DNA of 64,000 bases. Origin: Rhodovibrio salinarum DSM 9154. Lineage in GTDB: Bacteria; Pseudomonadota; Alphaproteobacteria; Kiloniellales; Rhodovibrionaceae. Below the pieces are notes generated by a model. The model did no database searches. It saw only the letters and a program-made list of their open reading frames with translations, and was not told where the DNA came from. Each line of letters starts with the position of its first letter. Position 1 is the first letter of the stretch. The position numbers were made by a program, and so were the translations under genes. Of this stretch, positions 13,747 through 61,851 are shown piece by piece. Location of the stretch: NCBI RefSeq assembly GCF_000515255.1, contig NZ_KI911559.1, forward strand, positions 282,149 through 346,148, written 5' to 3'.

Positions 13747-13787
13747 TTTCGCGGACACAAGCTTGGAGCCATAGCCCATATTCGCCT

Positions 13788-14045
13788 TGCGGGAGAGATC
13801 GGGTCAGCCTGCAGCCCACCGACACATACGTCGGTGGAAACGATCCGGCGCCGAAGGAGCAACCGCCCCGGAAACTCTCAGGCAGAAGGACCGTAAGGCG
13901 ACGGGCACTCTGGAGAGCGAGCGCGCGGGCTCCTGCCCGCTCTCGCGCACCGCACCGAAGGAGTAAACCGCGGATATTCCGCCGGCGTTCGCATGACGCG
14001 ACCCGGCGTTGCGGTGAATCTCTCAGGTCAGACGACAGAGGGGGC
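13788..14045 (+). promoter_or_regulatory. Tandem glycine riboswitch controlling gcvTHP
   Basis: Two consecutive glycine aptamers. Aptamer 1: GGGAGAG (13791), GCCGAAGGAGCAA (about 13850), AAACTCTCAGGC with AAGGACCG (13872-13893), then ACTCTGGAGAG (13907-13917). Aptamer 2: GAGAGCGAG pairing start, CACCGAAGGAGTAA (about 13952), GAATCTCTCAGGTC (about 14017) and a closing ACAGAGGGGG (about 14035-14044). Glycine binding normally switches on the glycine cleavage operon. The ~110 bases between aptamer 2 and the gcvT ATG hold the expression platform, with the GGAGAG ribosome site at about 14142. No terminator T-run is seen there, which favours control of translation. Confidence 0.95.
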
Positions 14046-14154
14046 ATGGCGGCGGATCGACCGGCACGGGCGGCCTCAAGGCCCGGGTTGGGGATCACAC
14101 ACGACCGCCGCAGCCGCCGCCTGAAACTGAACCGTCTGAGCCGGAGAGACGTTT

Positions 14155-45188: not shown

Positions 45189-46183
45189 CGCGCGGCCTTC
45201 CCTTCCAGCCGGATCCGCGGGTCGAGCGCGGCCAGCGCCAGATCGCTCAGCAACATCCCGATCACCGTCAGGAACGCCAGGAACATCAGGAACGAGCCGG
45301 CCAGGTACATATCCTGACTCTTCAGGGCGCCGATCAGCATCTGCCCGGTGGTCGGCAGGTCGAGCACGACAGAGACGATCGCCGCGCCCGAGACGACCTG
45401 CGGCAGCAGGTTGCCGATGTCCGCGATGAACGGGTTGATCGCCAGCCGCAGCGGATATTTCAGCAACAGCTTGCCCGGCGACAGGCCCTTGGCCCGGCCG
45501 GTCACGACGTACTGCTTCTGCAACTCATCCAGCAGGTTGGCGCGCAGCCGGCGGATCATCGCGGCAGTGCCGCTGGTGCCGATCACCACCACCGGCACCC
45601 AGAGGTGTGCCAGCACCGAGCCGACCTTGGCCCAGGACCAGGGTTGGCCGATGTATTGCGGGTCCATCAGCCCGCCGATCGAGGTGCCGAACCAGATGTT
45701 GGCGGCGTAGAGCAGCAGCAGTGCCAGCAGGAAGTTCGGTGTCGCCAGGCCCAGGAATCCGATGAAGCTCAGCGTGTAGTCGCCGATCGAGTACTGCCGC
45801 ACGGCGGTGTAGATGCCGATCGGGAAAGCGACCGCGTAGGTGAACAGGATCGTCACCACCGAGATCACGAAAGTCAGCAGCAGCCGGTCGCCAATCAGTT
45901 GCGAGACCGGCAGCTGGTACTCGAAGCTGTAGCCGAGGTCGCCCTGCAGCAGCCCCCCGGCCCACATCAGGTACTGCTGCCACAAGGGCTCGTCCAAACC
46001 GTACTTCTCGCGCAGGAAGGCGATCCGCGCGTCGTTCACGCCCTCGCCTTGGGCAGCCAGCTCGGCGACGTAGGTCGTCAGGTAGTCGCCCGGCGGCAGC
46101 TGGATGATGACGAAGATGATCACGCTGATCGCGATCAGCGTGGGCACCATGGTGATCAGGCGGCGGACGGTATAGGCGAACAT
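45185..46183 (-). CDS. Peptide-type ABC transporter permease (DppB/YejB-like)
   Basis: A 332-residue permease with about six transmembrane helices. RRLITMVPTLIAISVIIFVIIQL starts the protein as in DppB/OppB. IRRLRANLLDELQKQYVVTGRAKGLSPGKLLLKYPLR is the EAA coupling motif. It lies 11 bases downstream of the solute-binding protein gene and overlaps the second permease gene by four bases. With that permease it should form the membrane channel of a family-5 (peptide/nickel/opine) ABC importer. Confidence 0.94.
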   Translation of the reverse strand: MFAYTVRRLITMVPTLIAISVIIFVIIQLPPGDYLTTYVAELAAQGEGVNDARIAFLREKYGLDEPLWQQYLMWAGGLLQGDLGYSFEYQLPVSQLIGDRLLLTFVISVVTILFTYAVAFPIGIYTAVRQYSIGDYTLSFIGFLGLATPNFLLALLLLYAANIWFGTSIGGLMDPQYIGQPWSWAKVGSVLAHLWVPVVVIGTSGTAAMIRRLRANLLDELQKQYVVTGRAKGLSPGKLLLKYPLRLAINPFIADIGNLLPQVVSGAAIVSVVLDLPTTGQMLIGALKSQDMYLAGSFLMFLAFLTVIGMLLSDLALAALDPRIRLEGKAAR

Positions 46184-46194
46184 ACGGCTAAACG

Positions 46195-48189
46195 TTACCC
46201 CGGTTGCGTACGCGTACGGGCGTACGCGTTCTCGTCCCCGGCGTCAGCCGCCGCGTGATCTTCGGCCCACCAAAAGGTGTCCGGGCGATAGATGCCGAAA
46301 AAGGAACCAGGATCCCAGTTGTACAGCCCCTCCTGCGGAACGCCGCGCAAGCGGGTGTGCACCACGACCGGCTGCGGCACGTCGGCAACCAAGCCGAGGG
46401 TGTACTGCTGCTCGGCGTTGATCCGCAGCATCTCGTGCCAGATCGCCCGGCGACGGTCGGACTCGCGGGTGACGTACCACTCTTCGTAAAGCTCCAGCAG
46501 GCGCTTGGGTGCCGCCATGTCGACCGGTTCGCCGGAACGCCCCCCGGTCTGGTAATACTGCCCCCACTTCGACCACTGGTAGCTGTACTGATCGACCGGC
46601 GCGAGTTCGCTCGGGCTCATATCCGCCGTCGGGACGCCGTTCTCTAGCCCCTTCCAAATACCCATCACACTGGAGCCGGCGAAGGTCCGCCGGCGAAAGA
46701 CGGATCGCTGCGTCGCATTGGTGTGCAGGCCGATTCCCACCTTCTTCCAGCTGTCCGTGATCAGCTGCAGCAGGTCGCTTTCTTCGGTGCTGTCGCCGGC
46801 GCTTTCGATCACGATCTCGCAGCGCCGTCCATCGGGCAGCAGCCGATAGCCACGGTCGTCGCGGTCGGTCAGCCCGATCGCGTCCAGCAGCCGGTTGGCG
46901 CGCGCGATCGAAAAATCCGCCCAGACATCCCGGTAGTATGCCTTGTAGAGCGGGCTGCGCGGCAGGATCGTGTTGTTCCCCTCCAGCGCCAGGCCGTAAT
47001 AGATCACCTGGTTCAGTTCATGGCGATGGATCGCCAGCGAGAGCGCCCGACGAAACCGCACGTCGCGAATCAACGCCCGCCAGACGTCGTCGTTCGCGTT
47101 CAGGTTGGGGTAGAGCGCGTGCTTGGAGCCGTAGGCCGGCTTCCACAAGCGTACCTCCAGCGGGAAGCGATCCTCGGCCGCCTGCAGGAAGGTGTAGTTG
47201 TCGAAGCGCAGGTAGCGCGCCTGCAGATCGCTCTCCCCCGCCCCGGTCTTGGCGGGGATGATCCCGGGCGCGGCGATCTTGACCACCAGCCGGTCGATGT
47301 AGGGCAGCTGCCGGCCCTGCGGGTCGACACGGTGGTAGAAGGGATTGCGCGTAAAGATGAAGCGCTGGGACGGCGGCCGGGTGGTGTTCACCCACGGCTG
47401 CAGGGTGGGCAGGTCCGGGTTGTCGTGGTCGTACAGGTTGTCCAGATGGGTGTGCAGATCTCCCCAGTCGCGCTGATTGTACTTGGCGACCCGCGCCTGG
47501 AGCTTGTGCTTGGGCGCGTAGTCGGCGTGGAACTGCTTCATGTAATGGCTGGGACGATACAGATAGAGCGGCAGCGCGCCCGCCAGGTCGTGCAGGAAGG
47601 TCGGGTTCGGCTTCGACCAGGCGTAGACGACCGTGCGGTCGTCAGGAAAACTGACCTGCGGCAGTTCGCCGTCGACCCGCAGCTTCTGCGGCGGCCCGGC
47701 GGGGAACAGTTCCGGGTGGTTGGCCACGTCTTCCCACCAATAGCGGAAATCCTCGCTGGTGAAGGGGTGGCCATCCGACCAGCGATGCCCCCGGCGCAGG
47801 CGGATGGTGAAGATCCGCTCCGCTTCGACCTCGACCGCCTGGGCGATGTCGGGCTGCAGCTCCAGGTCGGGGCTGTAGCCGACCAGCCGGCCATAGCCGT
47901 AAACCGTAATCTGGCTGAGGTCGCCCTGCTTGCCCATCAACAGCCGCAGGTCGCCGCCGTACCGGCCGGGCGATTGCCAGGGCAACGCCAGCGTCTCCAC
48001 CTTGGGCGTTGCGGGCACGCGCGCAGCCATCGCAGGCAGCTCCCCGGCGGCGACGCGCTGGCGCAGGATCGGCGGCTCCTCGCCATTGGCTCCCGCACGC
48101 ACCGGCAGGCCGGGCATCAGCCGCAACGCCGCCAGCGCCGCCGCGCCGCCGAGCAACAACTGCCGTCGGGAGAAGCGCGGCGAGGTCAC
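46195..48189 (-). CDS. ABC transporter solute-binding protein, family 5 (Tat-type signal)
   Basis: A 664-residue periplasmic binding protein. The N-terminus SPRFSRRQLLLGGAAALAAL is a twin-arginine signal (Arg8-Arg9) rather than a plain Sec signal. The body has SBP_bac_5 hallmarks: PDIAQAVEVEAERIFTIRLRRGHRWSDGHPFTSEDFRYWWED early and FRRALSLAIHRHELNQVIYYGLALEGNNTILP in the middle. It is unusually large for a dipeptide binder (about 500-540), as seen in the YejA-like and carbohydrate- or opine-type groups. Ligand unknown; next to glycosyltransferases it might bind a glycopeptide or oligosaccharide (inference). It overlaps the ATPase gene by four bases. Confidence 0.9.
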   Translation of the reverse strand: MTSPRFSRRQLLLGGAAALAALRLMPGLPVRAGANGEEPPILRQRVAAGELPAMAARVPATPKVETLALPWQSPGRYGGDLRLLMGKQGDLSQITVYGYGRLVGYSPDLELQPDIAQAVEVEAERIFTIRLRRGHRWSDGHPFTSEDFRYWWEDVANHPELFPAGPPQKLRVDGELPQVSFPDDRTVVYAWSKPNPTFLHDLAGALPLYLYRPSHYMKQFHADYAPKHKLQARVAKYNQRDWGDLHTHLDNLYDHDNPDLPTLQPWVNTTRPPSQRFIFTRNPFYHRVDPQGRQLPYIDRLVVKIAAPGIIPAKTGAGESDLQARYLRFDNYTFLQAAEDRFPLEVRLWKPAYGSKHALYPNLNANDDVWRALIRDVRFRRALSLAIHRHELNQVIYYGLALEGNNTILPRSPLYKAYYRDVWADFSIARANRLLDAIGLTDRDDRGYRLLPDGRRCEIVIESAGDSTEESDLLQLITDSWKKVGIGLHTNATQRSVFRRRTFAGSSVMGIWKGLENGVPTADMSPSELAPVDQYSYQWSKWGQYYQTGGRSGEPVDMAAPKRLLELYEEWYVTRESDRRRAIWHEMLRINAEQQYTLGLVADVPQPVVVHTRLRGVPQEGLYNWDPGSFFGIYRPDTFWWAEDHAAADAGDENAYARTRTQPG
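46206..46227 (-). repeat. Perfect 8-bp hairpin at the 3' end of the binding-protein gene
   Basis: GCGTACGC (46206-46213), a six-base loop and GCGTACGC (46220-46227). It lies inside the last codons of the solute-binding protein gene and just ahead of the permease gene. Such hairpins often protect the binding-protein message from decay or slow transcription into the permeases. GTACGCGTAC also occurs in the truA/channel hairpin. Confidence 0.4.
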
Positions 48190-50105
48190 GGCGTGGCCTC
48201 CACCGGCTGCGGCACGTGGGTGGCGCGGACGAAGTGCCCCCGGCCCAGATCGATCAGCTGCGGCGGCGTCTTGCCGCGACCGTCATGACCGAACGGCGCG
48301 GGCCAGTGCGCCGGATCGGACACCCGTTCGCTGAGCAGCGCGCCCAGGTCGAGCCGGCGGTTGGGGTCGGGAGCCGGCACCGCCTGCAGCAGCGCGCGGG
48401 TATAGGGGTGGCGCGGATCGCGGAAGAGCATTTCGCGCGGGGCCAACTCAACCAGCTCACCCTTGCACATCACCGCGATCCGGTCGGCCAGATAGTCCAC
48501 GACCGCCAGGTTATGGCTGATGAACAGATAGGTCAGGCCCAGCTCCTGCTGCAGATCGCGCAACAGGTTCAGGATCTGGGCCTGGATCGACACGTCGAGC
48601 GCGCTAACCGGCTCGTCGCAGATCAGCAGGTCCGGCTTGAGCGCGAGCGCGCGGGCGATGCCGATGCGCTGGCGTTGCCCGCCCGAGAAGGAATGCGGGT
48701 AGCGTTGCAGGTGTTTGGGCTCCAGGCCGACCACCTGCATCAGCTCCGCGATCATCTCCCGCCGCCAGGCCTTGTCGCCGATACCGTGAATGGCGAACGG
48801 CTCGCCCAGGATATCGGCGACCGTCATACGCGGATTGAGCGCCGAGAAAGGGTCCTGGAAGATGTACTGCACCTTGCGCCGGTAGGCGTCGAGCTGCGCG
48901 CCCTCAAGCGCCAGTACGTCGCGCTCTTCCCCCCGGTCGTTGAACACGATGCGCCCCGAATCCGGCGTGATCGCGCGCATGATCGCCTTGGACACGGTCG
49001 ACTTGCCACAGCCGCTTTCCCCGACCAGACCCAGGCATTCCCCCCGTCGGATCGTGAAGCTGACATCGTCAACCGCGGTGATCCGCTGCTCGGACTGAGC
49101 GAACCAGCCACTCTTGCGCAGGCCGAAGGTCTTGGTCAGCCCCGCGACCGTCAGCAGCGGCCGGCGACCATCGACCGGCTGGCCGTCCCGCTCGGTCGCG
49201 TCGCGGGCCCACAGCCGGCTGCTCGACCGGTGCGGAACCTCGCGCAACGGCCGCAGCCGCTCACCGGGGCCCATGTCGAAACGTGGAACCGCCCCCATCA
49301 GCGCCTTCAGGTAAGGGTGACGCGGGGCGTCGAAGATCGCCCCGCGCGGACCGCTTTCCACCACCCGGCCGCGGTACATCACCACCACCTCCTCGGCGAC
49401 ATTGGCGACCACACCCAGATCGTGGGTGATCATCAGCACCGCCATGCCGAGTTCGCTCTGCAAATCGCGGATCAGCTTGAGGATCTGCGCCTGGATGGTG
49501 ACGTCGAGCGCCGTGGTCGGCTCGTCCGCGACCAGCAGCGACGGCCGGCAGATCAGCGCCATCGCGATCATCGCGCGCTGGCGCAGGCCGCCCGACAATT
49601 CGAAGGGATAGGTCGTGAGCGCGCGCTGCGGGTCGGGGAAGCCGACCAGGCGCAGCATGTCGCGGGTGATCTCGGTCGCTTCCGTCCGGGTCACGTCGCG
49701 GTGCAAACGCAGCGCTTCGCCCACCTGGTCACCCACCGTGTGCACGGGGGAGAGCGAGGTCATCGGCTCCTGGAAGATGATCGAGATGCGGTCGCCGCGC
49801 AGCGCCCGCATCTCCGGCGACCGCGGCGACAGGGCCGCGATATCGACCGGCGCGCTCCCGTCACTGCCGGGCGCGGAAACCTTCGGATCGTCGAACAGGA
49901 TCTTGCCGCCGTCGATCCGGGCGGCGCGCGGCAGGATGCCCATGATCGCCTGCCCGGTCACCGACTTGCCGGAGCCGGATTCGCCGACCAGCGCCACTGT
50001 GCCGCCGACTGGCACACGGAAGGAGACGCCGCGCACCGCGTCGATCCGGCCGGCCATCAGACCGAAGGAGACGTGCAGACCCTCCACGCGCAGCAGATCG
50101 CTCAT
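48186..50105 (-). CDS. Peptide-type ABC transporter ATPase, fused DppD-DppF
   Basis: 639 residues containing two complete nucleotide-binding domains. The first has Walker A GESGSGKS at 41-48, signature LSGGLRQR and Walker [13 protein letters not shown]. The second starts after about residue 315, with Walker [10 protein letters not shown] near 357-366, signature [15 protein letters not shown] and Walker [13 protein letters not shown]. Both sites look fully catalytic. The first domain ends with the oligopeptide-family tail ([12 protein letters not shown]), the second with [12 protein letters not shown]. It powers the two permeases and is translationally coupled to the genes on both sides. Confidence 0.94.
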
Positions 50106-50701
50106 CCCCGCTCCCCCGAACAGGCGTTTGCGTCGTGCGCAGGGGCGGACGTCCGCGCGATCTCGCGCGCGCGGGCCGCGATGGCGGGCGGCGGCGCAAG
50201 CGTCCCATCGGGGTCAATGCCGAAGGCCTGCATGTTGTGCACCGTCGACGTATCGAGCGGCCGACCGTTGGCCCGCGCGGCCTCCCCAGCGCGCCAGACC
50301 AGGTAGTCGAAGCCGGTCAGGCCACTCTCGAAGCTAAAGCGTGCGCCAGGGGCCTGCAGCTTCAACTGGTAGAAGCCGCCTTCTGCCTTACGCTCGCGCT
50401 TGCTGCCGTAATAGCGCAGCCGGACGGCCGTAACCGCCTGCCAAGTGAGTGGGCGAGCAGTCAGCGTATGGACTATCAGCCCATCCGCCTGCACCTCAAC
50501 GCGGGTCATCTGTCTCATGGCCGTGCGGACGCCAAACCCGGCGAACAACAACATCAGTCCGCCAACCGGCACGCCCAGGCCCCAGCCGATCGGGTTGAGC
50601 GCAAGGACGCAGGCCCCGACCGCGACGCCAAAGGCAGCCCGCAAGTAATCGCCGATCAACGTGCCCGGGGGATAGCGCAGCGTCCGTGTCGTCTCGCTCA
50701 C
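50102..50701 (-). CDS. Small two-helix membrane protein of unknown function
   Basis: About 199 residues from the GTG at 50701, which overlaps the preceding glycosyltransferase stop. Two hydrophobic segments form a hairpin (about 20-55), followed by a soluble domain beginning [41 protein letters not shown], reminiscent of PH-like domains of bacterial membrane proteins, but not a confident match. The C-terminus is Ala-rich. It overlaps the ABC ATPase gene by four bases, tying the glycosyltransferase genes to the transporter genes. No function can be assigned. Confidence 0.7.
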
Positions 50702-51897
50702 CACGCCTCCGTTGGCCCCGTCGCAGTCCTTCCAGTCCCCCCGGTCGGCACCATAGCAACCAATTCACGCAGAATCTGCGATGAGTTTCGAATGCCGGCG
50801 AGGTCGACGGTAGCCTCGTCGATTTGGCGTACCGGCGGCCCGGCGAGTGCGCGATCAATGGCCTGTGCCAGGCGTTGGGGCGTCAGCCCGACTTCGCGGA
50901 CGCTGACAAGGCGGCCGCGCGCAGCCAGCCGCTCGGCCCGCAAGGCCTGCTCGCGCTCGCCACCATCGCCTTCGAACGGGACGACCACACTCGCCACCCC
51001 GGCGGCCAGCACCTCGGTCACCGTGTTGTAGCCGGCCTGACTGACCGACAGACGGCACCCAGCGAGCAGAAGCGGGAAATCGGCCCGGTTGCGCTCGACC
51101 ACCGTATTGGGATCAGCTGCCGCCTGGATCGCATCGAACATGCTTTGGGGCAGGTTACCGCCGAGCAGCACCCGCCAGGGTGCCGTACCGGCCTGGTGGC
51201 TCAGCGCCCGTGCGCGGACCGCGGCGTGGCCAAGCGCGCCGCCCACGGCCCCGCCGCCGGTCGAGACCAGTACCTCCCCGCTCGACGGCACATCCCGCGG
51301 CATCTCCGGGACGACATAGCCGGTGTAGACGAGCTTGTCGGCTATTCGTTGCGCTTCCGGAATAGTTTCTTCCAGCCGTGCCACCTGCGGATCGCCGTGG
51401 ACCAGCACCCGGTCGACATACCGGTCCACGATATCAATCGCCCAGTCGGCCTTCTCGGGGCCCGGCGGATTGAGCAGGTCGCGCAGCGAGACCACGACCC
51501 AGGGACGCGGCCGGCGCGCATGCGCGGCTTCCAGCAGCGGCAGCAACTCGAAGCGCAGGCTACGCCGGCCGAACGGGAACAGTTCGAGCAGCAGCACGCG
51601 CGGCCATTCACGTTCGAACAGCGCCAGCGTCGCATCCCGACGCGCCGTCTTCCAGGCGTCGTCGACCGACCGGCCGTCGGCATCCGCCAAGTGGGAAAAG
51701 CTGGCGTCGCCGGCGCGCGCGGCCGGCAATTGTTCGAGCCGTGCGGCCCCGGGTTGGAGATCCGGCACCGGCAGCCCGCCGCTCGCCAGCACGGTCTCCA
51801 AGCCGGCCGCCGCGCAGCCGGCGGCGATTCGGCTGGCGCGCTGCAAATGCCCGATGCCGAGCAGATGCTGCACGTGAATCAGCACGTCGGCCGCCAC
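50698..51897 (-). CDS. MurG-like glycosyltransferase (GT-B fold), second copy
   Basis: A 399-residue GT-B-fold protein. The N-terminal LIHVQHLLGIGHLQRASRIAAG holds the glycine-rich acceptor-side motif, and the C-terminal SQAGYNTVTEVLAAGVASVVVPFEGDGGEREQALRAERL is the MurG/GT28-type UDP-sugar site. It is a paralogue of the protein at 54970-56217, sharing the start and the GYNT-E motif. The GTG at 51897 is three bases after the phosphatase stop. The donor and acceptor are unknown. MurG itself is not the likely identity because no division genes surround it and MurG has a longer GGTGGHxxPA motif. Confidence 0.83.
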   Translation of the reverse strand: MAADVLIHVQHLLGIGHLQRASRIAAGCAAAGLETVLASGGLPVPDLQPGAARLEQLPAARAGDASFSHLADADGRSVDDAWKTARRDATLALFEREWPRVLLLELFPFGRRSLRFELLPLLEAAHARRPRPWVVVSLRDLLNPPGPEKADWAIDIVDRYVDRVLVHGDPQVARLEETIPEAQRIADKLVYTGYVVPEMPRDVPSSGEVLVSTGGGAVGGALGHAAVRARALSHQAGTAPWRVLLGGNLPQSMFDAIQAAADPNTVVERNRADFPLLLAGCRLSVSQAGYNTVTEVLAAGVASVVVPFEGDGGEREQALRAERLAARGRLVSVREVGLTPQRLAQAIDRALAGPPVRQIDEATVDLAGIRNSSQILRELVAMVPTGGTGRTATGPTEAW

Positions 51898-51900
51898 TAC

Positions 51901-52506
51901 CTAGCTTCCTTCTGCGCGCGCGCCGTCGCCCAGCGGACGGTTAAGCGCGGACACCACCGGCAGGCCATCGCCCGTCAGCTCGAATAGCTGCAAACAGCCG
52001 TCGTGCAACGCCTCCGGCGGCTTGTCGCGCATGTCCCAGCCAGTCGCCAGCGCGTAGATCGCCCGGATGACACCACGATGGGTCACCGCCAGCGTGTCCG
52101 TCGCGTCAGCTGCCAAACGAACCAGCAGCGGCATCAAGCGCGCCTGCAGATCGCGCGAACTTTCCCCTTGGGGGGCCCGGAAGTCGAGACCACGCGCCTC
52201 CCAGTTTTTCATATCGCTTCCGTAACGACTTCGCAGCTCAGGCAACCGCTCGCCCTCCCAGCTGCCCCAGGAACGCTCCGCCAGCGCCGGTTCGATCCGC
52301 GTCCCCCTCAAACCGAGCAGTTCCGCGGTTTCCCGCGCCCGGGTCAGGGGGCTCACAAGTACTTGATATGCCTTAACATCTATTGGCACCCGCCATTGCG
52401 CGACCGTCGCGCGGCCAGCCTGCGACAGCGGCACATCAGTGCGGCCCTGAATGCGCTTCTCGGCGTTCCAGGCGGTGGGGCCGTGGCGAATCAGGGCCAG
52501 TTTCAT
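51901..52506 (-). CDS. Histidine phosphatase family protein
   Basis: A 201-residue phosphoglycerate-mutase-like enzyme. The phosphorylated His is in LIRHGPTAWN, Arg and Glu of the site appear in SPLTRARETAELLG and ERSWGSWEG, and VTHRGVIRAIYALATG holds the second His. It could remove a phosphate from a sugar phosphate or cofactor within the glycan pathway (cobC-like phosphatases share the fold). Its ATG overlaps the upstream glycosyltransferase stop (ATGA). Confidence 0.88.
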   Translation of the reverse strand: MKLALIRHGPTAWNAEKRIQGRTDVPLSQAGRATVAQWRVPIDVKAYQVLVSPLTRARETAELLGLRGTRIEPALAERSWGSWEGERLPELRSRYGSDMKNWEARGLDFRAPQGESSRDLQARLMPLLVRLAADATDTLAVTHRGVIRAIYALATGWDMRDKPPEALHDGCLQLFELTGDGLPVVSALNRPLGDGARAEGS

Positions 52507-53633
52507 GCCGATCTCCCTGCAACCTCATCCAGCAGCGCCCCTATTCGTTGCGATACCGTATTGATTGAATGCTGCCGGGCGATCTTCCGCCGCGCCGCCG
52601 CCCCCATACGCGCCCGGGTGTCTGGATCATCGAGCAGGTCAGCAACGGCCCAGGCGAACGCATCCGGGTCATGCGGCGGGACCAAGCGGCCGGTCTCGCG
52701 ATCGGCCAGGATCGCGGAAACCCCGCCAAAATCGCCGCAAACGGCGGGACATCCGACGGCCTGCGCCTCCAGCAGGGCCATGCCATAGGCCTCGTTCACC
52801 GCCGGCCAGACGAACAGATCGGCGCTTGCCAAAGCGCACAGAGTCTCACCCGAATTTGTTACGCTTGCGTACCGAATATGCTCGGCGACCGGGACGAAAG
52901 CCGCTTCCACCTCCGCCCGCACCGGCCCATCGCCCAACACCAACATCTGCCAGCGTCGGTCGCCCAGGCGGCCCAGCGCGTCCGCCAGTTCGCGGTAGGA
53001 GGCCAGCTTGTCCCCAGCGCGCATCATCGCCACCGCGATTATCCAGGGCACCTCCGGGTTCAGACCATAGACCGCGGCCAGCGTGGTGCGGTCGGGGCGC
53101 GCCGCATCGATCTCGGTCGTGTCCAGGAAAGGCGGCAACGCCACCTGCCGCACGCTGGCCGGCAAGCAGTCCGCATCAACCGGATTTATCGTCAGCACCG
53201 CCGCCGCTTGGCGCAGTGCGGCCGCGACCTGCCGGTGCCCGGCGTCCCAAGGGCCGCCAGCGCGCTTGGGGGCGTGGGAGGCCTCCACCACCAAGTAGGG
53301 AATCCCCAGCATTTCCGCAGCCGTGGGGCCGATCCAGTCAGGCGCCTTGTAGTATAGATGATAGGTCAGCCAGACCTGCGGCCGTTGCGCCGGCGGCCGG
53401 GTCCGAACGCGGCGCACATACCGCGCCGCCAGCCGTCGGCCGAGGGCGGCGAGCCGTGCCTGACGCGCGGGATCGCCCTTGGGATCGCGGCTGCGCAGCC
53501 GGCTGGCGAGCTCAACTGAACAGCCCGCCCGCTCCAACGCCTGCCACAGCAACTGCGCCATTCGCCGGTCGCCGGACGGAACCGGATGGTCCGGCGGCTT
53601 CAGCGGGGCATAGAAGGCGACCTGCGTCATCAT
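52503..53633 (-). CDS. Glycosyltransferase family 4
   Basis: About 376 residues, GT-B fold. The N-terminus (MTQVAFYAPLKPPDHPVPSGDRRMAQLLWQALERAG) is typical of GT4. The sugar-nucleotide site is SADLFVWPAVNEAYGMALLEAQAVGCPAVCGDFGG, with the E-x7-E pattern, followed by GRLVPPHD. The paired ATG at 53633/53630 has no strong ribosome site, but it lies 16 bases after the previous stop, so coupling is possible. An in-frame ATG at 53678 would overlap the upstream gene by about 28 bases. Donor and acceptor unknown. Confidence 0.86.
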   Translation of the reverse strand: MMTQVAFYAPLKPPDHPVPSGDRRMAQLLWQALERAGCSVELASRLRSRDPKGDPARQARLAALGRRLAARYVRRVRTRPPAQRPQVWLTYHLYYKAPDWIGPTAAEMLGIPYLVVEASHAPKRAGGPWDAGHRQVAAALRQAAAVLTINPVDADCLPASVRQVALPPFLDTTEIDAARPDRTTLAAVYGLNPEVPWIIAVAMMRAGDKLASYRELADALGRLGDRRWQMLVLGDGPVRAEVEAAFVPVAEHIRYASVTNSGETLCALASADLFVWPAVNEAYGMALLEAQAVGCPAVCGDFGGVSAILADRETGRLVPPHDPDAFAWAVADLLDDPDTRARMGAAARRKIARQHSINTVSQRIGALLDEVAGRSA

Positions 53634-53649
53634 TTTGTATGCGTAACGA

Positions 53650-54927
53650 TCATTCAGCTGCCCGTCGCGGAACATCCGCAACGTCGCCGCGCAGCAGGTT
53701 GGCCAGCGCGTCGATCTGACCTTCGGCGTCGAACGCCGCGCGGACCCTTGCCGCGCCCGCCTGCCCCAGCGCCTGCCGGGTCGCGGCATCGCGAATCAAC
53801 GACGCGAGCGCCGCCGCCAATGCGTCCGCGTCGCCCGGCGGCACCAGCCGACCGGTCTCCCCCTCGCGGATCAGCTCGGGAATCGCGGAGACGTCGGTGG
53901 CGAGACACGCCAGCCCCTGGCTCTGCGCTTCCATCAGCACGTTGGGCAGACCATCGCGATCGCCATCGGGCGCGATCCGGCTGGCCAGCACGAACAGGTC
54001 GCTGTCCCGGTAGGCGGACAGCACGTCCGCCTGCGCCTGCGCGCCGCGCCAGTCGATCCGCTCCGCCAGGCCCAGCCGGCCGGCCTGCGCACGCAGTTCC
54101 TCGCGCAGCTCCCCACCGCCGATATGGGTCAGGCGCCAGTGCAGCTCCGCCGGCAATCGAGCCAACGCCTCTAGCAGCACGTCGTAGCCCTTCTTGCGCA
54201 CCGCCCGGCCGACGCTGATCAGCCGCACCGGGTTTTCGGGATCGCGACCATCGCGCGCGCCGGCAGGCGCCGGCGTCGCCGGAAAGCGGTCGAGGTCGAG
54301 GCCGTGATAGACCAGCCGTACCTTGGCCGGCTCGTCGGCCAAGCTCGCCAGATGATCCCGACCGACGGCGGTGCAGGTCGTGAGCCAGTCCATCTCCTTG
54401 AGCTTCTCGCGGATATCCCAGTCGGGCGTGGTCCAGATATCCTTGGCGTGGGCTGAACAGCACCAGGGCAGCCCGCGCATCAAGGCGGCATAGCGTGCGA
54501 CCGACGCCGGCGTGTGCAGGAAATGGACATACAGCCGGTCAACGTCGGCCGGCAGCTCTGCGGCCAAGACGCAGGCCTGGCCGAAGCGGCGTACGCGATT
54601 GCGCGTGGGATCGCGCCGCAGGTCTGCCAGGAACGCCCGGCGGGCGCGGCCGTAGCCCGGCAATCGACGTGCCGTCCGCCAGCCGCGCAGCACGCGGCCC
54701 GGGGCCTTGTGGAGGTATTCCGGTAGATAGCTGACCGGCGCCTGGATCTCGTCGTGGATTGGGTGTGTCTTGGCATCGTACGGCCGGCGCAACGAAACCA
54801 GCCGCAGGTCGAAACCTCGCTGCTCCAGGGCATGCAGTTCCTGGGCGATGAAGGTCTCGGACAGGCGTGGGTAGCCCTTGAGCACCACCGCAAGGCGCGG
54901 CGGGTTGGTCGGCGCGTGGGTCGGCAT
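53650..54927 (-). CDS. Glycosyltransferase family 4 (exopolysaccharide/colanic-acid type)
   Basis: A 425-residue GT-B glycosyltransferase. LAVVLKGYPRLSETFIAQELHALEQRGFDL opens it, matching the WcaL/AmsK-like group of exopolysaccharide transferases. The acceptor-side HAKDIWTTPDWDIREK stretch and the donor site DSDLFVLASRIAPDGDRDGLPNVLMEAQSQGLACLATDVSAIPELI (E-x7-E variant) are clear. It starts 42 bases after the MurG-like gene. Likely role: adding a sugar to a surface glycan or glycolipid intermediate on the cytoplasmic face. Confidence 0.9.
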   Translation of the reverse strand: MPTHAPTNPPRLAVVLKGYPRLSETFIAQELHALEQRGFDLRLVSLRRPYDAKTHPIHDEIQAPVSYLPEYLHKAPGRVLRGWRTARRLPGYGRARRAFLADLRRDPTRNRVRRFGQACVLAAELPADVDRLYVHFLHTPASVARYAALMRGLPWCCSAHAKDIWTTPDWDIREKLKEMDWLTTCTAVGRDHLASLADEPAKVRLVYHGLDLDRFPATPAPAGARDGRDPENPVRLISVGRAVRKKGYDVLLEALARLPAELHWRLTHIGGGELREELRAQAGRLGLAERIDWRGAQAQADVLSAYRDSDLFVLASRIAPDGDRDGLPNVLMEAQSQGLACLATDVSAIPELIREGETGRLVPPGDADALAAALASLIRDAATRQALGQAGAARVRAAFDAEGQIDALANLLRGDVADVPRRAAE

Positions 54928-54969: not shown

Positions 54970-56217
54970 TTAGCGCCCGGCGCGCCAGGCTTCCGGCACG
55001 GCATCGTCCGCGCTGGCGGCGAGGTCGAGGCCAGTGGTCGGCGCATCGAGCCATTGGCGCACCAACTTGGCGACGTTGCGCCGGCCTTCCAGCAGACCGG
55101 GGATCACGCCGCTGGAGGGCAGCGGCTGCTGCGGCAGGCCGCGCAGCGCGGTGGCCATCTTGCGCGCCGGGCGCACGGCATCGTCTTCCAGCATGCGCAC
55201 AAGCCCGAGCTGCGCAGCGTGACTGGCCCGGATATACTGCTCCCGCCGCGGGACGGTGCGCGGCACGATCAAGGCGCGCTTGTCGAACGACAGGATCTCG
55301 CAGAAGGTGTTGTAGCCACCCATACCGACGACCCCGACCGCCTGGGCCAGCAACCCTTCGATATGCGCATCGAAGGTGATCGCCTCCACCTTGTCGAGCT
55401 TTTGCGCGCGGTCGAGAAAGTCGTTCTGGTGCTCGCTGCCCATGAACGGGCCAAGCACCAACAGCACGGGATACGGCAAGTCCGGTTCGGCCTCGTAGGC
55501 GCGCAGGACCCAGTCGATGATCGCCTCACCGTCGCCACCGCCGCCCACGGTGACCAGGATGTAGGGCGCCCGGATCTTCTCCAGCCGGACCTTGGGCGCG
55601 TTTGCCGCGCCCTCGCGTGGCAGATAGCCGGTGTAGACCATCCGCCGCATGAGCGAAGCCGGGAGATCAAGCCCGTCGAGCGGCCGGCAGATCTGCGGCA
55701 GGCCGTAAACCCAGATGGCGTCGTAATGGTCGACCAGCGCGGGCACCGCCTGCTTGCGCCGCCACTCCTCCGTCAGCGCGTCGGGATCGTCCATGACGTC
55801 GCGCAGGCCCAGAACGCACGGCACGCCGCGCGCGTTCAGGTAGGCCAGCGTCTCGCGCACCTCGCCGCGCAGGCCAAGCGGCTCCTTGTCGACCAGGAAC
55901 AGATCAGGCTGGAAGGCTTCGGCGGTATGGCGGATGATCGCCGCGCGCATCGCCATCGTCTGCTCGATCGCCAGCGGCAGCTTGAGCGAGGTGTACTCGC
56001 CGTTGCGCAGCTTGATCACGCCCGGGATGCGCACGAAATCGACCCGGCTGCGGAAGTCGAAATTGCCGATGATCGGCGAGCCGGAGAGGATCAGCACCGA
56101 AGCATTCGGATTGTCGTCGACGATCGCATGCGCGATCTCACGGCATCGCCGCAGATGACCGAGCCCGAAGCTATCGTGGCTATAGATCAGAATTCGGGCC
56201 GGTTTATCGTTGGCCAT
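54970..56217 (-). CDS. MurG-like glycosyltransferase (GT-B fold), first copy
   Basis: About 415 residues. RILIYSHDSFGLGHLRRCREIAHAIV is the N-terminal motif; the C-terminal GVVGMGGYNTFCEILSFDKRALIVPRTVPRREQYIRASHAAQLGLVRML is the nucleotide-sugar-binding part, with VTVGGGGDGEAIID between the domains. It is the first gene of the ten-gene minus-strand chain, with GAGGGGGC before the ATG. A longer reading frame continues upstream to 56517 through the intergenic palindrome and is not believed. Functionally it is a likely glycan or glycolipid transferase; substrate unknown. The palindromic operator at 56288 lies 71 bases upstream. Confidence 0.86.
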   Translation of the reverse strand: MANDKPARILIYSHDSFGLGHLRRCREIAHAIVDDNPNASVLILSGSPIIGNFDFRSRVDFVRIPGVIKLRNGEYTSLKLPLAIEQTMAMRAAIIRHTAEAFQPDLFLVDKEPLGLRGEVRETLAYLNARGVPCVLGLRDVMDDPDALTEEWRRKQAVPALVDHYDAIWVYGLPQICRPLDGLDLPASLMRRMVYTGYLPREGAANAPKVRLEKIRAPYILVTVGGGGDGEAIIDWVLRAYEAEPDLPYPVLLVLGPFMGSEHQNDFLDRAQKLDKVEAITFDAHIEGLLAQAVGVVGMGGYNTFCEILSFDKRALIVPRTVPRREQYIRASHAAQLGLVRMLEDDAVRPARKMATALRGLPQQPLPSSGVIPGLLEGRRNVAKLVRQWLDAPTTGLDLAASADDAVPEAWRAGR

Positions 56218-56287: not shown

Positions 56288-56307
56288 AAAGTGACCGCGG
56301 TCACTTT
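56288..56307. promoter_or_regulatory. 20-bp perfect palindrome, CRP-type operator candidate
   Basis: AAAGTGACCG/CGGTCACTTT is a perfect 20-bp inverted repeat. Its core GTGA-N6-TCAC matches the recognition spacing of CRP/FNR-family proteins. It lies between divergent units: 71 bases from the MurG-like ATG and about 170 bases from the ABC exporter start. A cyclic-nucleotide-binding protein and an adenylate cyclase are encoded 3-5 kb away. Identity of the bound regulator is inference. Confidence 0.7.
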
Positions 56308-56475: not shown

Positions 56476-59199
56476 GTGGGCATGGAAAGCAACCTTTTCC
56501 GGTACATCTGGCGGCACAGCCGGCGCGAGCAGTTGGGTATCCTGTTCCTGGTCGCGCTGTCCCTGCCGTTCTATTTCCTGTCCCTCAACCTGCCCAAGGA
56601 CATCGTCAACCGGGGCATCCAGGGCCAGGGGTTCGCCGGGCCCACGGACACGCAGACCTTCCTGCGCACACCGGTGCCGCTGTCCGAAACGCTGAGCGGC
56701 GAGCAGCTATATTTCTACGACGGCATGCAGCTCGACCAGACCTCGCTGCTGCTGTCGCTCAGCTTCGTGTTCCTGGGCCTGGTGATCGCCAACGGCCTGT
56801 TCAAATTCGTCATCAACACCTCCAAGGGGCGGATGGGCGAACGGGTGCTGCGCCGGCTGCGCTATCAGCTGGTCGACCGCATCCTGCGATTCCCGCTGCC
56901 GCATCTGCGCCGGGTCAAGCAGGCCGAGGCGGCCACCATGGTGAAGGACGAGGTGGAACCGCTCGGCGGCTTTATCGGCGACGCCTTCATCTCACCCGCT
57001 TTCCTGGGCGGCCAAGCGTTGACCGCCATGGTGTTCATCATGGCGCAAAGCTTCTGGCTGGGCGGGATCGCGCTGGTGATCGTGCTGGTCCAGGCCGGCC
57101 TGATCCCCAAGCTGCGCATTCCAATTCTGCGGCTTGGCAAGCGTCGCCAGCTGACCGCACGTGAGCTTGCCGGTCGGGTCGGCGAGCTGGTCGACGGGGG
57201 GCTGGAAATCCACGCCCACGATACTTCCAATCTGGAACGGGCGGACATTTCCGACCGGCTGGGGAAGATCTTCGAGATCCGTTACGAGATCTTCCGGCGT
57301 AAATTCTTCGTGAAGTTCCTGAACAACTTCCTGAGCCAGTTGACGCCGTTCATCTTCTACGCGGTGGGCGGCGTGCTGGCGATCCAGGGTCAGCTGGACA
57401 TCGGCGCACTGGTCGCGGTGATCGCGGCCTATAAGGATCTGCCCGGACCGGTGAAGGAATTGATCGACTGGGAGCAGCGCCGGCAGGACGTGCAGATCAA
57501 GTACGACACCGTGATCGAGCAGTTCCAGCCACCGGTGATCCTGGAGTCCGAGCGCCAGAACCCGGACGCCGATCCCGGCCCGCCGCTCCGCCAGTCGGTC
57601 GATCTGCGCAACGTCACGGTGAACGACGACGGCGACACGCCGATCCTGAAGAACGTCGACCTGTCCCTCCCGATCCCGGCGCGCACGGCCATTGTCGGCG
57701 CCGGCGCCAGCGGCAAGAGCCAATTGGCCCAAGTGGCCACCGGCCTGTTCCTGCCGGCGGGTGGGACGGTGCTGCTGGACGGGCGCGACACCACGAATTT
57801 GCCAGAAGCGGTAACCGGCCGGCGCACCGCCTACGTCGGGCCGGAGTCCTACCTGTTTCCGGGCAGCGTGGGCGACACACTGCTCTACGCCCTGAAGCAC
57901 CGCCCGATCCGCGCGGCCGAGCGCGCGGCCGCGGACGACCAGGCCAAGGACGCCGCCGACCGGGAAACGGCAGCCGCCGGCAACACCCTGCTGGACCCCG
58001 AAGCGGACTGGATCGACTACGATGCCGCCGGGGTGGACGGGGCGGCGGCGATCCGCCAACGCATGGTCGCGGTACTGGAGACGGTGGACATGGGAACCGA
58101 CGTGTACCGCTTCGGCCTGTCCGGCACGATCGATCCGAACCTGCGCCCGCAGACGGCCCAGGCGCTGCTCGAAGCGCGGAACGCCCTGGCGGTGCGCCTG
58201 CAAGCACAAGACCTGCAAGGCCTGGTCGAGCCGTTCGATACCGACCGTTACAACAGCAACGCCACACTCGGCGAGAATCTGCTGTTCGGCACGCCGATCG
58301 ATCCGGCGTTCGCCCCGGACCAGCTGGCCGACAACCGGATCGCGCGGGAAGCCATGCAGACGACCGGCCTGGAAGCGTCGCTGGTCGCCATGGGCCTGCA
58401 AATCGCGCGCACAATGGTCGAGATTTTCGCCGACCTGGAACCGGGCCACCCCTTCTTCGAGCAGTTCTCCTTCATCGATGCCGAGGAGCTGCCACGTTAC
58501 AAGAGCCTGGTGGCACAGGCCGACAAGGTCGGCCTCGACGCGCTTCCGGACGGCCAGCGCCGACAGTTGAAGCGCCTGCCGCTCGACTATGTCGAAGCCC
58601 GCCATCGCCTGGAGCTGGTGGGCCCCGAGATCGAACGGCTGGTGGTGGCCACCCGGCACGAGCTGGACCGGCGGATCGTCCGGGAGCGCCCGGAAGCCGT
58701 CGAGGTCTTCGACCCCGAGCGCTACAACGCCGCCGCGTCCTTGCAGGACAACATCCTGTTCGGCCGCATCGCCCATGGCCGGGCGAACGCCGTGACCCGG
58801 ATCGCGGCTGCGATCGCCGAGGTGCTCGACCGTCTGGACCTGCGGGCCAGCGTGATCGACGTTGGGCTGGAGTATCAGGTCGGCGTGGCTGGTAAGCGCC
58901 TATCGGCGGTCCAACGGCAGAAGCTGGCGCTCGGCCGGGCGCTGATGAAGCGCCCGGACCTGTTGGTGATCGACCAGGCGACCGCGATCATGGACGGCCA
59001 GACCGAAATGCGAATCATGGACAACGTGCTGCGAGAACGCGCCGAAGGCGGCGTGATCTGGGTGCTACACCGCGCCCAACAGGCCAGTCGGTTCGATCGG
59101 GTGGTCGCGGTCGAGGCGGGCCAGATCGCCGAACACGGCCGCTATGACGAGTTGGCCGGCGCAAACGGTGCGCTCGACCGGCTGATTGCCGATGACTAG
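56476..59199 (+). CDS. ABC exporter-like membrane ATPase with split, degenerate nucleotide-binding domain
   Basis: 907 residues. Six hydrophobic segments within about 20-320 form an ABC-exporter membrane domain, with a periplasmic stretch (about 45-90) between helices 1 and 2. Walker A is GAGASGKS (408-415) and a Q-loop-like ESYLFPGSVGDTLLYAL lies at 457-473. The signature motif, LSAVQ (809-813) instead of LSGGQ, comes about 390 residues after Walker A; the usual gap is about 100. Walker B VIDQAT has Gln834 where the catalytic Glu belongs; the switch His865 is present. The insertion contains two more Q-loop-like copies, NATLGENLLFG (595-605) and AASLQDNILFG (753-763). ATP hydrolysis may be slow or absent. 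GTG 56476 or ATG 56482 starts. Substrate is unknown; glycan or glycolipid export is inferred. Confidence 0.8.
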   Translation: MGMESNLFRYIWRHSRREQLGILFLVALSLPFYFLSLNLPKDIVNRGIQGQGFAGPTDTQTFLRTPVPLSETLSGEQLYFYDGMQLDQTSLLLSLSFVFLGLVIANGLFKFVINTSKGRMGERVLRRLRYQLVDRILRFPLPHLRRVKQAEAATMVKDEVEPLGGFIGDAFISPAFLGGQALTAMVFIMAQSFWLGGIALVIVLVQAGLIPKLRIPILRLGKRRQLTARELAGRVGELVDGGLEIHAHDTSNLERADISDRLGKIFEIRYEIFRRKFFVKFLNNFLSQLTPFIFYAVGGVLAIQGQLDIGALVAVIAAYKDLPGPVKELIDWEQRRQDVQIKYDTVIEQFQPPVILESERQNPDADPGPPLRQSVDLRNVTVNDDGDTPILKNVDLSLPIPARTAIVGAGASGKSQLAQVATGLFLPAGGTVLLDGRDTTNLPEAVTGRRTAYVGPESYLFPGSVGDTLLYALKHRPIRAAERAAADDQAKDAADRETAAAGNTLLDPEADWIDYDAAGVDGAAAIRQRMVAVLETVDMGTDVYRFGLSGTIDPNLRPQTAQALLEARNALAVRLQAQDLQGLVEPFDTDRYNSNATLGENLLFGTPIDPAFAPDQLADNRIAREAMQTTGLEASLVAMGLQIARTMVEIFADLEPGHPFFEQFSFIDAEELPRYKSLVAQADKVGLDALPDGQRRQLKRLPLDYVEARHRLELVGPEIERLVVATRHELDRRIVRERPEAVEVFDPERYNAAASLQDNILFGRIAHGRANAVTRIAAAIAEVLDRLDLRASVIDVGLEYQVGVAGKRLSAVQRQKLALGRALMKRPDLLVIDQATAIMDGQTEMRIMDNVLRERAEGGVIWVLHRAQQASRFDRVVAVEAGQIAEHGRYDELAGANGALDRLIADD

Positions 59200-59241: not shown

Positions 59242-59318
59242 CAACGAACTGCGTGCGAAACGCGGGTGTGACAAACTGGTCGGGACGTGCCTGGCGGGCG
59301 CGCGCAAAGGAGGCGGCG

Positions 59319-59768
59319 ATGGGTCTTGAACAAGAGGTCGATATCCTGCGGCGGATTCCGCTGTTCCAGAACATCGAGCCCTCCAAGCTCAAACTGATGG
59401 CGTTCGCGAGCGAACGCGTGACCTTCGCCGACGGCGCCGCCCTATTCGAACAGGGCGAGGAGGGGGATGCCGCCTACATCGTGCTCGACGGCACGGCGGA
59501 CGTGCAGGTGACCGCCGACGGGGGATCGGCGATCACGATCGCCCAGGTCGCCAGTAACGACATCGTGGGCGAGATCGCCATTCTGTGCGACGTTCCCCGC
59601 ACCGCCAGCGTGGTGGCGACCAGCGAGCTGACCACGCTGAAGATCACCAAGGAATTGTTCTTTCGTCTGGTGCACGACTTCCCCCAGATCGGCGTGGAGG
59701 TGATGCGCGTGCTCGCCCACCGCCTGGAAACCACCACCCGCCAACTCCGCGAGGCGCGCGGCGGCTGA
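59319..59768 (+). CDS. Stand-alone cyclic-nucleotide-binding-domain protein
   Basis: A 149-residue protein consisting almost entirely of one cNMP-binding beta-barrel. IPLFQNIEPSKLKLMAFASERVTFADGAALFEQGEEGDAAYIVLDG is the N-terminal half. The phosphate-binding cassette is VGEIAILCDVPRTASVVA, with the conserved Gly-Glu and Arg, so cAMP or cGMP binding is plausible. A final helix (VLAHRLETTTRQLREA) has no helix-turn-helix, so it is not a CRP-type transcription factor; it may act on a partner protein. AAAGGAGG sits just before the ATG. It lies 119 bases downstream of the ABC exporter, probably co-transcribed. Confidence 0.92.
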   Translation: MGLEQEVDILRRIPLFQNIEPSKLKLMAFASERVTFADGAALFEQGEEGDAAYIVLDGTADVQVTADGGSAITIAQVASNDIVGEIAILCDVPRTASVVATSELTTLKITKELFFRLVHDFPQIGVEVMRVLAHRLETTTRQLREARGG

Positions 59769-59806: not shown

Positions 59807-60301
59807 ATGAGCCGTCTCGACAGCGCGATCCGACGCCTGCAGGCCCAGCGCGCCTGCCTGAACGCCGCCGCCGAGGCGGTCGCCGACCGGCCCGGCGTGG
59901 TATTCGAGCTGGGCTTGGGCAACGGGCGCACCTACGACCACCTGCGCGAGAGCTGCGCCGGACGCGAGATCTTCGTGTTCGAGCGCCAGGTCGCCGCCCA
60001 CCCCGATTGCGTGCCCGACGACGCCCACCTCTATCTGGGCGACGTGCTGGAGACGCTGCCGCAGGCGGCTGAGCGCTTCGCGGGGCAGGTCGCGCTGCTG
60101 CACGCCGACATCGGCACCGGCGACGCGGCGCGCAACGCTCGTCTGGCCGGGGCCATCCAACCGTTCCTGCCCCATCTGCTTGTCCCCGGCGGGATCGCCG
60201 TGACCGACCAGGAGATGCCCTGGCCCGACGCCGAGCAGGTCGCCTTGCCCGACGGCGTGGCGCCAGGGCGGTATTTCCTGTACCGGCGGGTTAGCGATTA
60301 G
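59807..60301 (+). CDS. Small class I SAM-dependent methyltransferase-like protein
   Basis: A 164-residue Rossmann-type protein. GVVFELGLGNGRTYDHLRE resembles motif I (E/D-x-GxGxG), LLHADIGTGD is the acidic loop after beta-4 and LLVPGGIAVTDQEM corresponds to the beta-5/6 region. It is short for a methyltransferase (family members are often 200-250), with no obvious target-recognition domain. AAAGAAGG lies upstream of the ATG. It follows the cyclic-nucleotide-binding protein after 38 bases on the same strand. Function unknown; methylation of a glycan or lipid is only a possibility. Confidence 0.72.
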   Translation: MSRLDSAIRRLQAQRACLNAAAEAVADRPGVVFELGLGNGRTYDHLRESCAGREIFVFERQVAAHPDCVPDDAHLYLGDVLETLPQAAERFAGQVALLHADIGTGDAARNARLAGAIQPFLPHLLVPGGIAVTDQEMPWPDAEQVALPDGVAPGRYFLYRRVSD

Positions 60302-60373: not shown

Positions 60374-61759
60374 TTACGCCAGCCGCACGACGTCGACCGG
60401 CTGGCCCACCCCCTCGATCCTGGCGCCTGGCAGCTCCTGGATCGGCGCGGCCGGGCGGTAGCCCTGCTGACAAGCGGTGTCGTAGGCGTGGCGGGTCACA
60501 AGCGCCCGGCTGCCAAGCGCTGCGTTGTGTTTCTCCAGCTTGGCGGACAGGTTCACCGCCTCCCCGATCACGGTGTACTCCAGACGGTCCGTCTCCCCGA
60601 CCGCGCCGAACACCACACGCCCGCAGGCCACCGCCGCGTTGACCGGCACGCAGGGGCGCCCCCCGGCCGCCAACCGCGCTTGCCAGGCGCGCGCCGCAAC
60701 CATGATCTCCTCGACCGCACGCAGGGCATCGGCGGCGTAGCTGTCGGTGCTCGCGGAGGCGCCGAAGGTCGCCATGATGCCATCGCCCAGGAACTTGTCG
60801 ATCGAGCCGCCGTGCTTGCGCACGATCGGCACCATTTCCGCCTGATAGTCCGCCAGCAGGCGCATCACCGCATCCGGCGCGACCTGCTGGGCCAGCGGGG
60901 TAAAGCCCCGCAGGTCAAGGTTCAGGATCGCGGCATCGCGCGATTCGCCCGCCCCGACGCCGATCTCCTCGGATTGTACGATCCGATCGGCGACCTCCGG
61001 CGAGAAGAAGCGGGACAGGTCGTTCGCCGCCGTGCTTTCGGCGACGCTGGAGACCAGCAGCTTACGCGCGCGCACGATGGCGAGCGCCAGAATACCGGTC
61101 ACCGTCAAGATCGAGATGATCTTGTCGAACTCCGCGCCCAGCAGCACCGCGTTGGAGGTCAGGTAGGTCACGTAGTTCCGGGTGATCATCGGGTCTTCCG
61201 GATTGACCGTGACCACATAGATCACCAGCACCGCCCATCCGGCCGCCGCCGCCAGCCCGGCGGTCAGCACGAACCGCGCCTCGAACCGAAGCGCGCGCAA
61301 GGCGATGAAGATGAAGACGTAGAGCAGCGTCGGCGACTTCAGATAGAAGCTCGCCGGCTGTTCGTACTGCAGGTGGAACGACCAGATCAGGACGAACAGC
61401 AAGGCCATGTCGATCACGATCGACAGGTAGAGGAACCAGTCGCCAAGATGCGTGCGGTAGGAGGCGGCCAGCCGGATCAACGTGAAGCCGAGGTAGGCCG
61501 CCAGCGCGTAGGGCACCGGCTGGAAGGTATCGTGCGCTTCGAACGTTTTCGGCGACAGCCAGTAGAGCGCACCGAACACGGCGACCACAGCGAGCTGTAC
61601 CCAGCCGACCAGCCGCTCGGTCGCATCCTGCTGCCGGGTAACCTGGCGGCGCACGCGTTCGGGCAGCCGGCCCCGCGTGGTGGTGTCGGCCACCAGCAGT
61701 TGACCCATCAGCCCAGGCCAACGTTCGACTGAGTGTGGCAATGGCGTCAGGTCGCTCAT
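60374..61759 (-). CDS. Class III adenylate cyclase with six-helix membrane domain
   Basis: 461 residues from the ATG at 61759 (a GTG at 61783 would add eight). Six transmembrane segments lie at about 53-231, then a short linker and the cyclase domain. The metal Asp residues are Asp282 in AILNLDLRGFT and Asp326 in FLGDGIMATFGA. The purine-selecting positions are Lys322 and Thr396, which fits adenylate (class IIIb-like) rather than guanylate cyclase. RLEYTVIGEAVNLSAKLE and the dimer-typical GRVVFGAVG are present. It is convergent with the methyltransferase-like gene and probably produces the cAMP sensed by the neighbouring binding protein. Confidence 0.93.
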   Translation of the reverse strand: MSDLTPLPHSVERWPGLMGQLLVADTTTRGRLPERVRRQVTRQQDATERLVGWVQLAVVAVFGALYWLSPKTFEAHDTFQPVPYALAAYLGFTLIRLAASYRTHLGDWFLYLSIVIDMALLFVLIWSFHLQYEQPASFYLKSPTLLYVFIFIALRALRFEARFVLTAGLAAAAGWAVLVIYVVTVNPEDPMITRNYVTYLTSNAVLLGAEFDKIISILTVTGILALAIVRARKLLVSSVAESTAANDLSRFFSPEVADRIVQSEEIGVGAGESRDAAILNLDLRGFTPLAQQVAPDAVMRLLADYQAEMVPIVRKHGGSIDKFLGDGIMATFGASASTDSYAADALRAVEEIMVAARAWQARLAAGGRPCVPVNAAVACGRVVFGAVGETDRLEYTVIGEAVNLSAKLEKHNAALGSRALVTRHAYDTACQQGYRPAAPIQELPGARIEGVGQPVDVVRLA

Positions 61760-61851
61760 GCCCGCCAAAATACGCGTTCCCACGCCTCCTGGCGCGTCAG
61801 AACCGCGTGAGCCGGCCGTGAACAGCCTGAGTTGGCCGCCAGAGCCGTGCT

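Follow-up and report, generated by a model that had tools for sequence, protein, structure and literature searches.

An open reading frame within the 64,000-nucleotide stretch of Rhodovibrio salinarum DSM 9154 DNA analyzed here (the window) encodes an ABC exporter-like protein in which the Walker A and signature motifs lie 394 residues apart. This raises the questions of what fills the gap and whether a protein built in this way still works as an ATP-driven exporter. The original prediction, made from the sequence alone, described an ABC exporter whose nucleotide-binding domain (NBD) is split by a ~390-residue insertion with internal repeats, and suggested that a duplicated and diverged half-domain could make a regulatory ATPase or a non-hydrolysing gate. 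The motif positions given there were exact (Walker A at 408-415, LSAVQ at 809-813, Q834 behind Walker B, and three Q-loop-like motifs at 457-473, 595-605 and 753-763). The features of the protein are as follows, TMD being the transmembrane domain.

56476..59199, + strand: degenerate ABC-exporter-fold protein (TMD and NBD with insertion), 907 aa, GTG start
56476..57555, + strand: Type I/IV exporter TMD, residues 1-360, the best-conserved part of the protein
57697..57720, + strand: Walker A GAGASGKS, residues 408-415
57826..58206, + strand: copy 1 of the Q-loop-to-signature-helix unit, about residues 451-577 (position 468, Arg568), from hhalign and AlphaFold2
58207..58698, + strand: copy 2 of the unit, about residues 578-741 (Asn601, Arg727), from hhalign; its structure matches the ABC helical sub-domain
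58699..58953, + strand: copy 3 of the unit, about residues 742-826 (Asn759, Arg821), leading into the signature, from hhalign
58900..58914, + strand: signature LSAVQ, residues 809-813
58960..58977, + strand: Walker B with D833-Q834

Protein family and distribution

The TMD and NBD were observed within the same chain, with a Pfam match to PF00664 (ABC_membrane, residues 92-317, 5.7e-11) followed by one to PF00005 (ABC_tran, 1.5e-15), the NBD being recognized in two parts, residues 391-495 and a C-terminal part. The family-consensus start is an ATG at 56482, which is residue 3 of the 907-aa reading frame. An Rfam scan of the gene region gave no match. Public annotation is generic for both the protein ('ABC transporter transmembrane domain-containing protein') and its downstream neighbor ('cyclic nucleotide-binding domain-containing protein'), and the NCBIfam exporter cut-offs were missed, with NHLM ABC1 the best at 174.5 bits against 853 and MsbA at 164 against 602. 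Neither Pfam nor NCBIfam has a model named for this layout, in agreement with the earlier statement that no named family was known to have it. Our literature search, in which subscription journals were thinly covered, found no functional study of the family, the duplication or the gene cluster and no biochemistry of any member.

The nearest relative, from Rhodovibrio sodomensis, is 85% identical over its full length. Full-length orthologs were observed in 50 of the 61 genomes of the order and in 132 of 385 genomes of the class Alphaproteobacteria (88 of 277 sampled genera), so about one third of the sampled alphaproteobacterial genera carry a protein that has nevertheless been labelled a generic ABC transporter. 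The gene is also found on rhizobial plasmids. In a survey that drew 398 genomes from across the phylum, the insertion layout was matched within the class Alphaproteobacteria only. Together these ABC-exporter-like membrane proteins make up a conserved family of the Alphaproteobacteria that has no name.

The gene is under strong purifying selection: dN/dS against R. sodomensis is 0.19 for the gene as a whole, 0.16 for the TMD and 0.21 for the insertion; the overall value rules out a decaying pseudogene. A frameshift joining two genes, raised earlier as a possible artefact, is ruled out together with a gene-fusion artefact, because the full-length layout is common to 118 non-redundant relatives and full-length orthologs occur across the order and class. 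The pSymB copy of Sinorhizobium meliloti 1021 (842126-844429) matches only residues 140-894, while most other S. meliloti records cover ~98% of the query; this shortened copy may reflect a strain-specific lesion or a sequencing error.

Origin of the insertion

Across the 118 relatives the distance from Walker A to the signature has a median of 394 residues and a range of 367-466. The same distance is ~104 residues in the MsbA-type exporter of this genome. The ~390 residues first reported are therefore correct as the span between the two motifs, while the net excess is ~290 residues. Where a single ABC-alpha sub-domain would give ~100 residues from Walker A to signature, we found 394 with three homologous units. 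Comparison of the family sub-alignments with hhalign gave E-values of 4e-14 for units 2 and 3, 8e-7 for units 1 and 2 and 9e-6 for units 1 and 3, against E>=0.15 for control comparisons of the repeats with the TMD, which bears out the internal repeats as more than chance. Longer versions of units 1 and 2 could be aligned end to end by profile (E 1.3e-7). Extending the profile alignment of units 2 and 3 through the signature helix yielded no confident alignment, and for this part homology is suggested by the predicted structure and the repeated Asn and Arg positions.

Each unit shares a common layout of a Q-loop-like strand, a [ST]xxxN[LI]L[YF]G motif, helices, and a helix bearing an 'AR' arginine. 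The equivalents of the canonical Asn are nearly invariant, with Asn at position 468 in 117 of 118 relatives and N601 and N759 in all 118, and the equivalents of the canonical Arg (R568, R727 and R821) are kept in 97-100% of relatives. Counted on the sequence, Asn and Arg are separated by 62 residues in copy 3, exactly as in the MsbA-type exporter of this genome. Because copy 3 has this spacing and also runs into the signature, it is the ordinary copy, and copies 1 and 2 are expanded. The duplicated half-domain proposed earlier can thus be sharpened, from profile alignment and structure, to two extra tandem copies of ABC-alpha (Q-loop to signature helix) that sit between the Q-loop and the signature.

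Structure prediction, which had been proposed as a check, was carried out with AlphaFold2 for both the full protein and the insertion. The full model had a mean pLDDT of 85, with values of ~90 or more across most of the NBD and insertion, and the insertion modelled alone reached 87.8 and resembled the ABC-alpha sub-domain. All 239 residues of the ComA NBD (3vx4) could be aligned to residues 368-905 of the full model, at 2.0 A and with Z 28.4, and since the whole ComA domain is accommodated, the NBD fold is predicted to be intact, the additional copies looping out of it. The top VIA matches of the insertion alone were NBD segments of ABC exporters covering ~71 residues of the helical sub-domain, namely 8xsr_B 474-545 (Z 6.1, 2.5 A) and PCAT1 8vp5_B 568-640 (Z 5.2, 2.7 A); VIA re-ranked Foldseek candidates, and a match of Z 6 is modest taken alone. 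Foldseek with the insertion alone returned no match below E 0.95. A known foreign domain was rejected as the source of the insertion, which had no Pfam match, a best PDB sequence match of E 0.081 and nothing significant by Foldseek.

Degeneration of the ATP site

Residues of the ATP site were counted in an alignment of the 118 non-redundant relatives, using the numbering of the Rhodovibrio protein. A canonical Walker A (G..GK[ST]) was observed in only 7 relatives; Lys or Arg is present at 414 in 108, and residue 415 is Glu or Asp in 95. The Q-loop Gln at 456 is found in 27 and the H-loop His865 in 36. None has LSGGQ, of which the terminal Leu809 and Gln813 are kept in the family. Residue 833 is Asn in 74 relatives, Asp in 20 and Ser in 16. 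At 834 we found Glu in 62, Asp in 21 and Gln in 12, so that Gln834, pointed out earlier, proved to be lineage-specific and was rejected as the key feature. All five catalytic residues occur together in a single relative. The earlier suggestion of a non-hydrolysing protein thus loses the reason it was given, yet it gains others from the family-wide loss of the Walker A Ser/Thr, the Walker B Asp, the signature glycines and the H-loop His. The question posed earlier of whether relatives have an intact Glu and LSGGQ has a split answer, with the Glu common and LSGGQ absent.

A catalytically competent site, comprising GxxxxGK[ST], LSGGQ, Walker B DE and the H-loop His, was found neither in the Rhodovibrio protein nor as a property of the family. 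The Rhodovibrio protein is among the least degenerate members, with GKS, LSAVQ, D833, Q834 and H865, and in the tree it is placed among relatives with GKD or GKE and N833. Its GKS and D833 may represent either retention or reversion, as the tree fits both.

The transmembrane part is the better conserved half of the protein. Within the order, conservation was 0.80 for the TMD against 0.68 for the NBD core, whereas MsbA of the same order showed the reverse (0.71 for the TMD and 0.79 for the NBD, with nearly invariant motifs). This pattern fits selection for the membrane part more than for the ATPase.

These data bear on the view that the protein is an ordinary ATP-driven exporter in which the insertion is regulatory or structural and the altered motifs still hydrolyse slowly, for example with an acidic residue 415 that takes over at the Mg site from the Walker B Asp. 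The frequent Lys/Arg at 414 and the Glu/Asp at 834 (83 of 118) speak for it. So does the near exclusion between an acidic 415 and Asp833 that a relocated carboxylate predicts, Asp833 being present in 9 of the 95 relatives with an acidic 415 against 11 of the 23 without (Fisher p 9e-5, an optimistic value since the sequences are related); it looks as if one Mg-site carboxylate had changed sides. The complete loss of LSGGQ, the scarcity of His865 and Gln456 and the lower conservation of the NBD relative to the TMD all count against it, and we regard this reading as doubtful, though a real possibility. Residual ATP binding or turnover is possible, as judged from the Walker A Lys/Arg that most relatives keep and the Glu kept by 62 of them.

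Known exporters with degenerate sites, such as CFTR, TmrAB, Pdr5 and TAP, combine one degenerate site with one canonical site (PMC7756269). They resemble the present family in their non-canonical Walker B, H-loop and signature, and differ from it in that here a single gene is found, a homodimer would hold two degenerate sites, and the Walker A Ser/Thr has been replaced by Glu/Asp. The precedent of a canonical partner site (PMC7756269), along with the retained Leu809 and Gln813, would fit a protein that supplies the degenerate half of a heterodimer and pairs with a canonical half-exporter from another locus, as in TmrAB or TAP. No second gene with an exporter-type TMD was seen in the conserved clusters, and the Walker and signature elements are all degraded within one protein. 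We consider such a heterodimer unlikely, although a partner encoded at a distance may exist. Type I (type IV) exporters in general (MsbA, PCAT1, TM287/288, TmrAB) provided the best sequence and structure matches and share the order of exporter TMD followed by a complete NBD, but lack the two extra ABC-alpha copies, the eroded ATP site and the higher conservation of the TMD over the NBD.

Cyclic-nucleotide-binding partner and gene cluster

The strongest functional clue, absent from the original prediction, is an adjoining or fused cyclic-nucleotide (cNMP)-binding protein. The genes surrounding the ABC gene in the window are listed below.

59253..59768, + strand: cyclic-nucleotide-binding (CRP/PKA-type) protein, Pfam PF00027 4e-18, likely start 59319
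59807..60301, + strand: Methyltransf_17 SAM-dependent methyltransferase (Pfam), present in many clusters
60374..61783, - strand: class III adenylate/guanylate cyclase with an N-terminal membrane part (Pfam)
54970..56217, - strand: GT28-like glycosyltransferase (Pfam), divergent neighbor of the ABC gene
52503..54927, - strand: two GT4 glycosyltransferases of the cluster (Pfam)
50698..52506, - strand: second GT28-like glycosyltransferase and a histidine-phosphatase protein of the cluster (Pfam)
43974..50105, - strand: Dpp/Opp-type ABC importer (two permeases, SBP_bac_5, double-NBD ATPase)

A cNMP-binding gene was observed immediately downstream of the ABC gene in 139 and fused to it in 12 of 155 testable distinct loci (151 in total), with none in the other 4. 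The 139 adjacent cases comprise 122 found by script and 17 that were added, mostly Bosea with overlapping reading frames, of which representatives were inspected. Fusion, seen for example in Aestuariispira and Ruegeria, places the cNMP-binding domain at the C-terminus of the ABC protein in all 12 relatives, and because such fusions occur, the separate proteins probably interact physically. The Gly, Glu and Arg of the phosphate-binding cassette are those of the cAMP-binding domains of CRP and PKA. We found the Gly in 167 of 167 partners, the Glu in 138 and the Arg (Arg116) in 148, and from these conserved residues the partner is predicted to bind a cyclic nucleotide. The cassette is eroded in members from Bosea and Rhodobacterales, so binding may not be universal in the family.

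HetC of Nostoc offers a precedent for an ABC exporter whose function requires a CRP-type nucleotide-sensing domain; it is a peptidase-ABC exporter whose N-terminal cNMP-type domain binds ppGpp and in which an ATPase residue is needed (PMC10986499). At the 151 loci counted above, a cNMP-binding domain is either part of the ABC protein, as in HetC, or encoded next to it. In contrast to HetC, with its C39 peptidase and N-terminal sensor, the present family is without a peptidase, carries its sensor C-terminally or in a separate downstream gene, and has a degenerate ATPase site.

Glycosyltransferases encoded divergently upstream of the ABC gene are conserved throughout the order and also occur there in other orders. 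The wider cluster, with the Dpp-type importer and a class III cyclase, was observed in this window and on pRL11 of Rhizobium johnstonii, and the importer is also part of the Azospirillum cluster. This recurrence of importer genes, along with a KATP-channel SUR chain as the top VIA row of the full model (7w4o_B, Z 29.3, tied with true exporters), would suit a SUR-like regulator, that is, an ABC-fold receptor that performs no transport and controls the importer or the cluster glycosyltransferases. The importer is not beside every copy of the ABC gene (e.g. the fused Ruegeria copy), and the TMD is the best-conserved part and holds invariant polar residues, as expected for a translocation path. 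We consider a role of this kind decidedly unlikely.

Proposed model

The explanation that we favor, tentatively and at a little under an even chance, is a homodimer-type exporter-fold protein (from a single half-transporter gene) that has largely lost hydrolysis and gained cyclic-nucleotide control, and that would serve an envelope glycan or glycolipid. Computation shows the exporter TMD to be intact, and the duplication, the eroded ATP site, the purifying selection and the gene pairing or fusion were likewise established computationally; its ligand, gating and substrate we infer as follows. Cyclic AMP or another nucleotide would bind the attached or docked cNMP domain and change the association of the NBDs, which would in turn open or license the TMD pathway. 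With the extra ABC-alpha copies added to it, the NBD pair would act as a non-hydrolysing transmission element, and these copies may relay the signal to the TMD, given that their ordinary counterpart contacts the TMD coupling helices. The cargo may be a glycan or glycolipid of the envelope that the neighboring glycosyltransferases produce, a guess from the neighbors only. In the Rhodovibrio protein, with its Lys-Ser, Walker B Asp and His and with Gln in place of Glu, ATP may bind and keep the NBDs in a closed state while being hydrolysed slowly or not at all.

A broader possibility, on the doubtful side, is that ABC-fold transporters or gates opened by cyclic nucleotides form a class of their own, in which cNMP control of an ABC-alpha-triplicated pseudo-ATPase NBD dimer has replaced the ATPase cycle. 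Such a class would be the ABC counterpart of the cyclic-nucleotide-gated channels. Should the motor prove to be a signal-gated pseudo-ATPase, bacteria would be shown to use the ABC exporter scaffold with no hydrolytic cycle; the family could then be compared, as an independent case, with CFTR and SUR and would tie cyclic-nucleotide signalling directly to envelope glycan export. The triplicated ABC-alpha is a natural test of how this sub-domain couples the NBD to the TMD.

Cyclase genes and upstream region

Cyclase genes were observed beside the ABC gene in Bosea and other lineages, and a cyclase is often part of the cluster. The transition-state arginine of class III cyclases is usually found within NxxxR. 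In the cyclase of the window (60374-61783, - strand) a Lys appears to occupy the expected Arg position (VNLSAKLEK), which may make its activity or specificity unusual. The ABC gene is missing from all three genomes of the order in which no class III cyclase was detected; these are few, related and of one family, and the co-absence is suggestive only.

Between the divergent GT28-like and ABC genes lies a perfect CRP-type palindrome, AGTGA-CCGCGG-TCACT (56291-56304), and in R. sodomensis TGTGA-N6-TCAC occurs at a comparable position (-167). GTGAN6TCAC was observed upstream in 4 of 152 relatives against ~0.6 expected, and we treat control by cAMP-CRP as a weak lead that is not counted as evidence. 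On pRL11 of Rhizobium johnstonii, where the ABC copy spans 12435-14824, one of the cluster glycosyltransferases may, by gene density, correspond to pRL110056, called an O-antigen biosynthesis gene and important for root colonization (PMC11103875).
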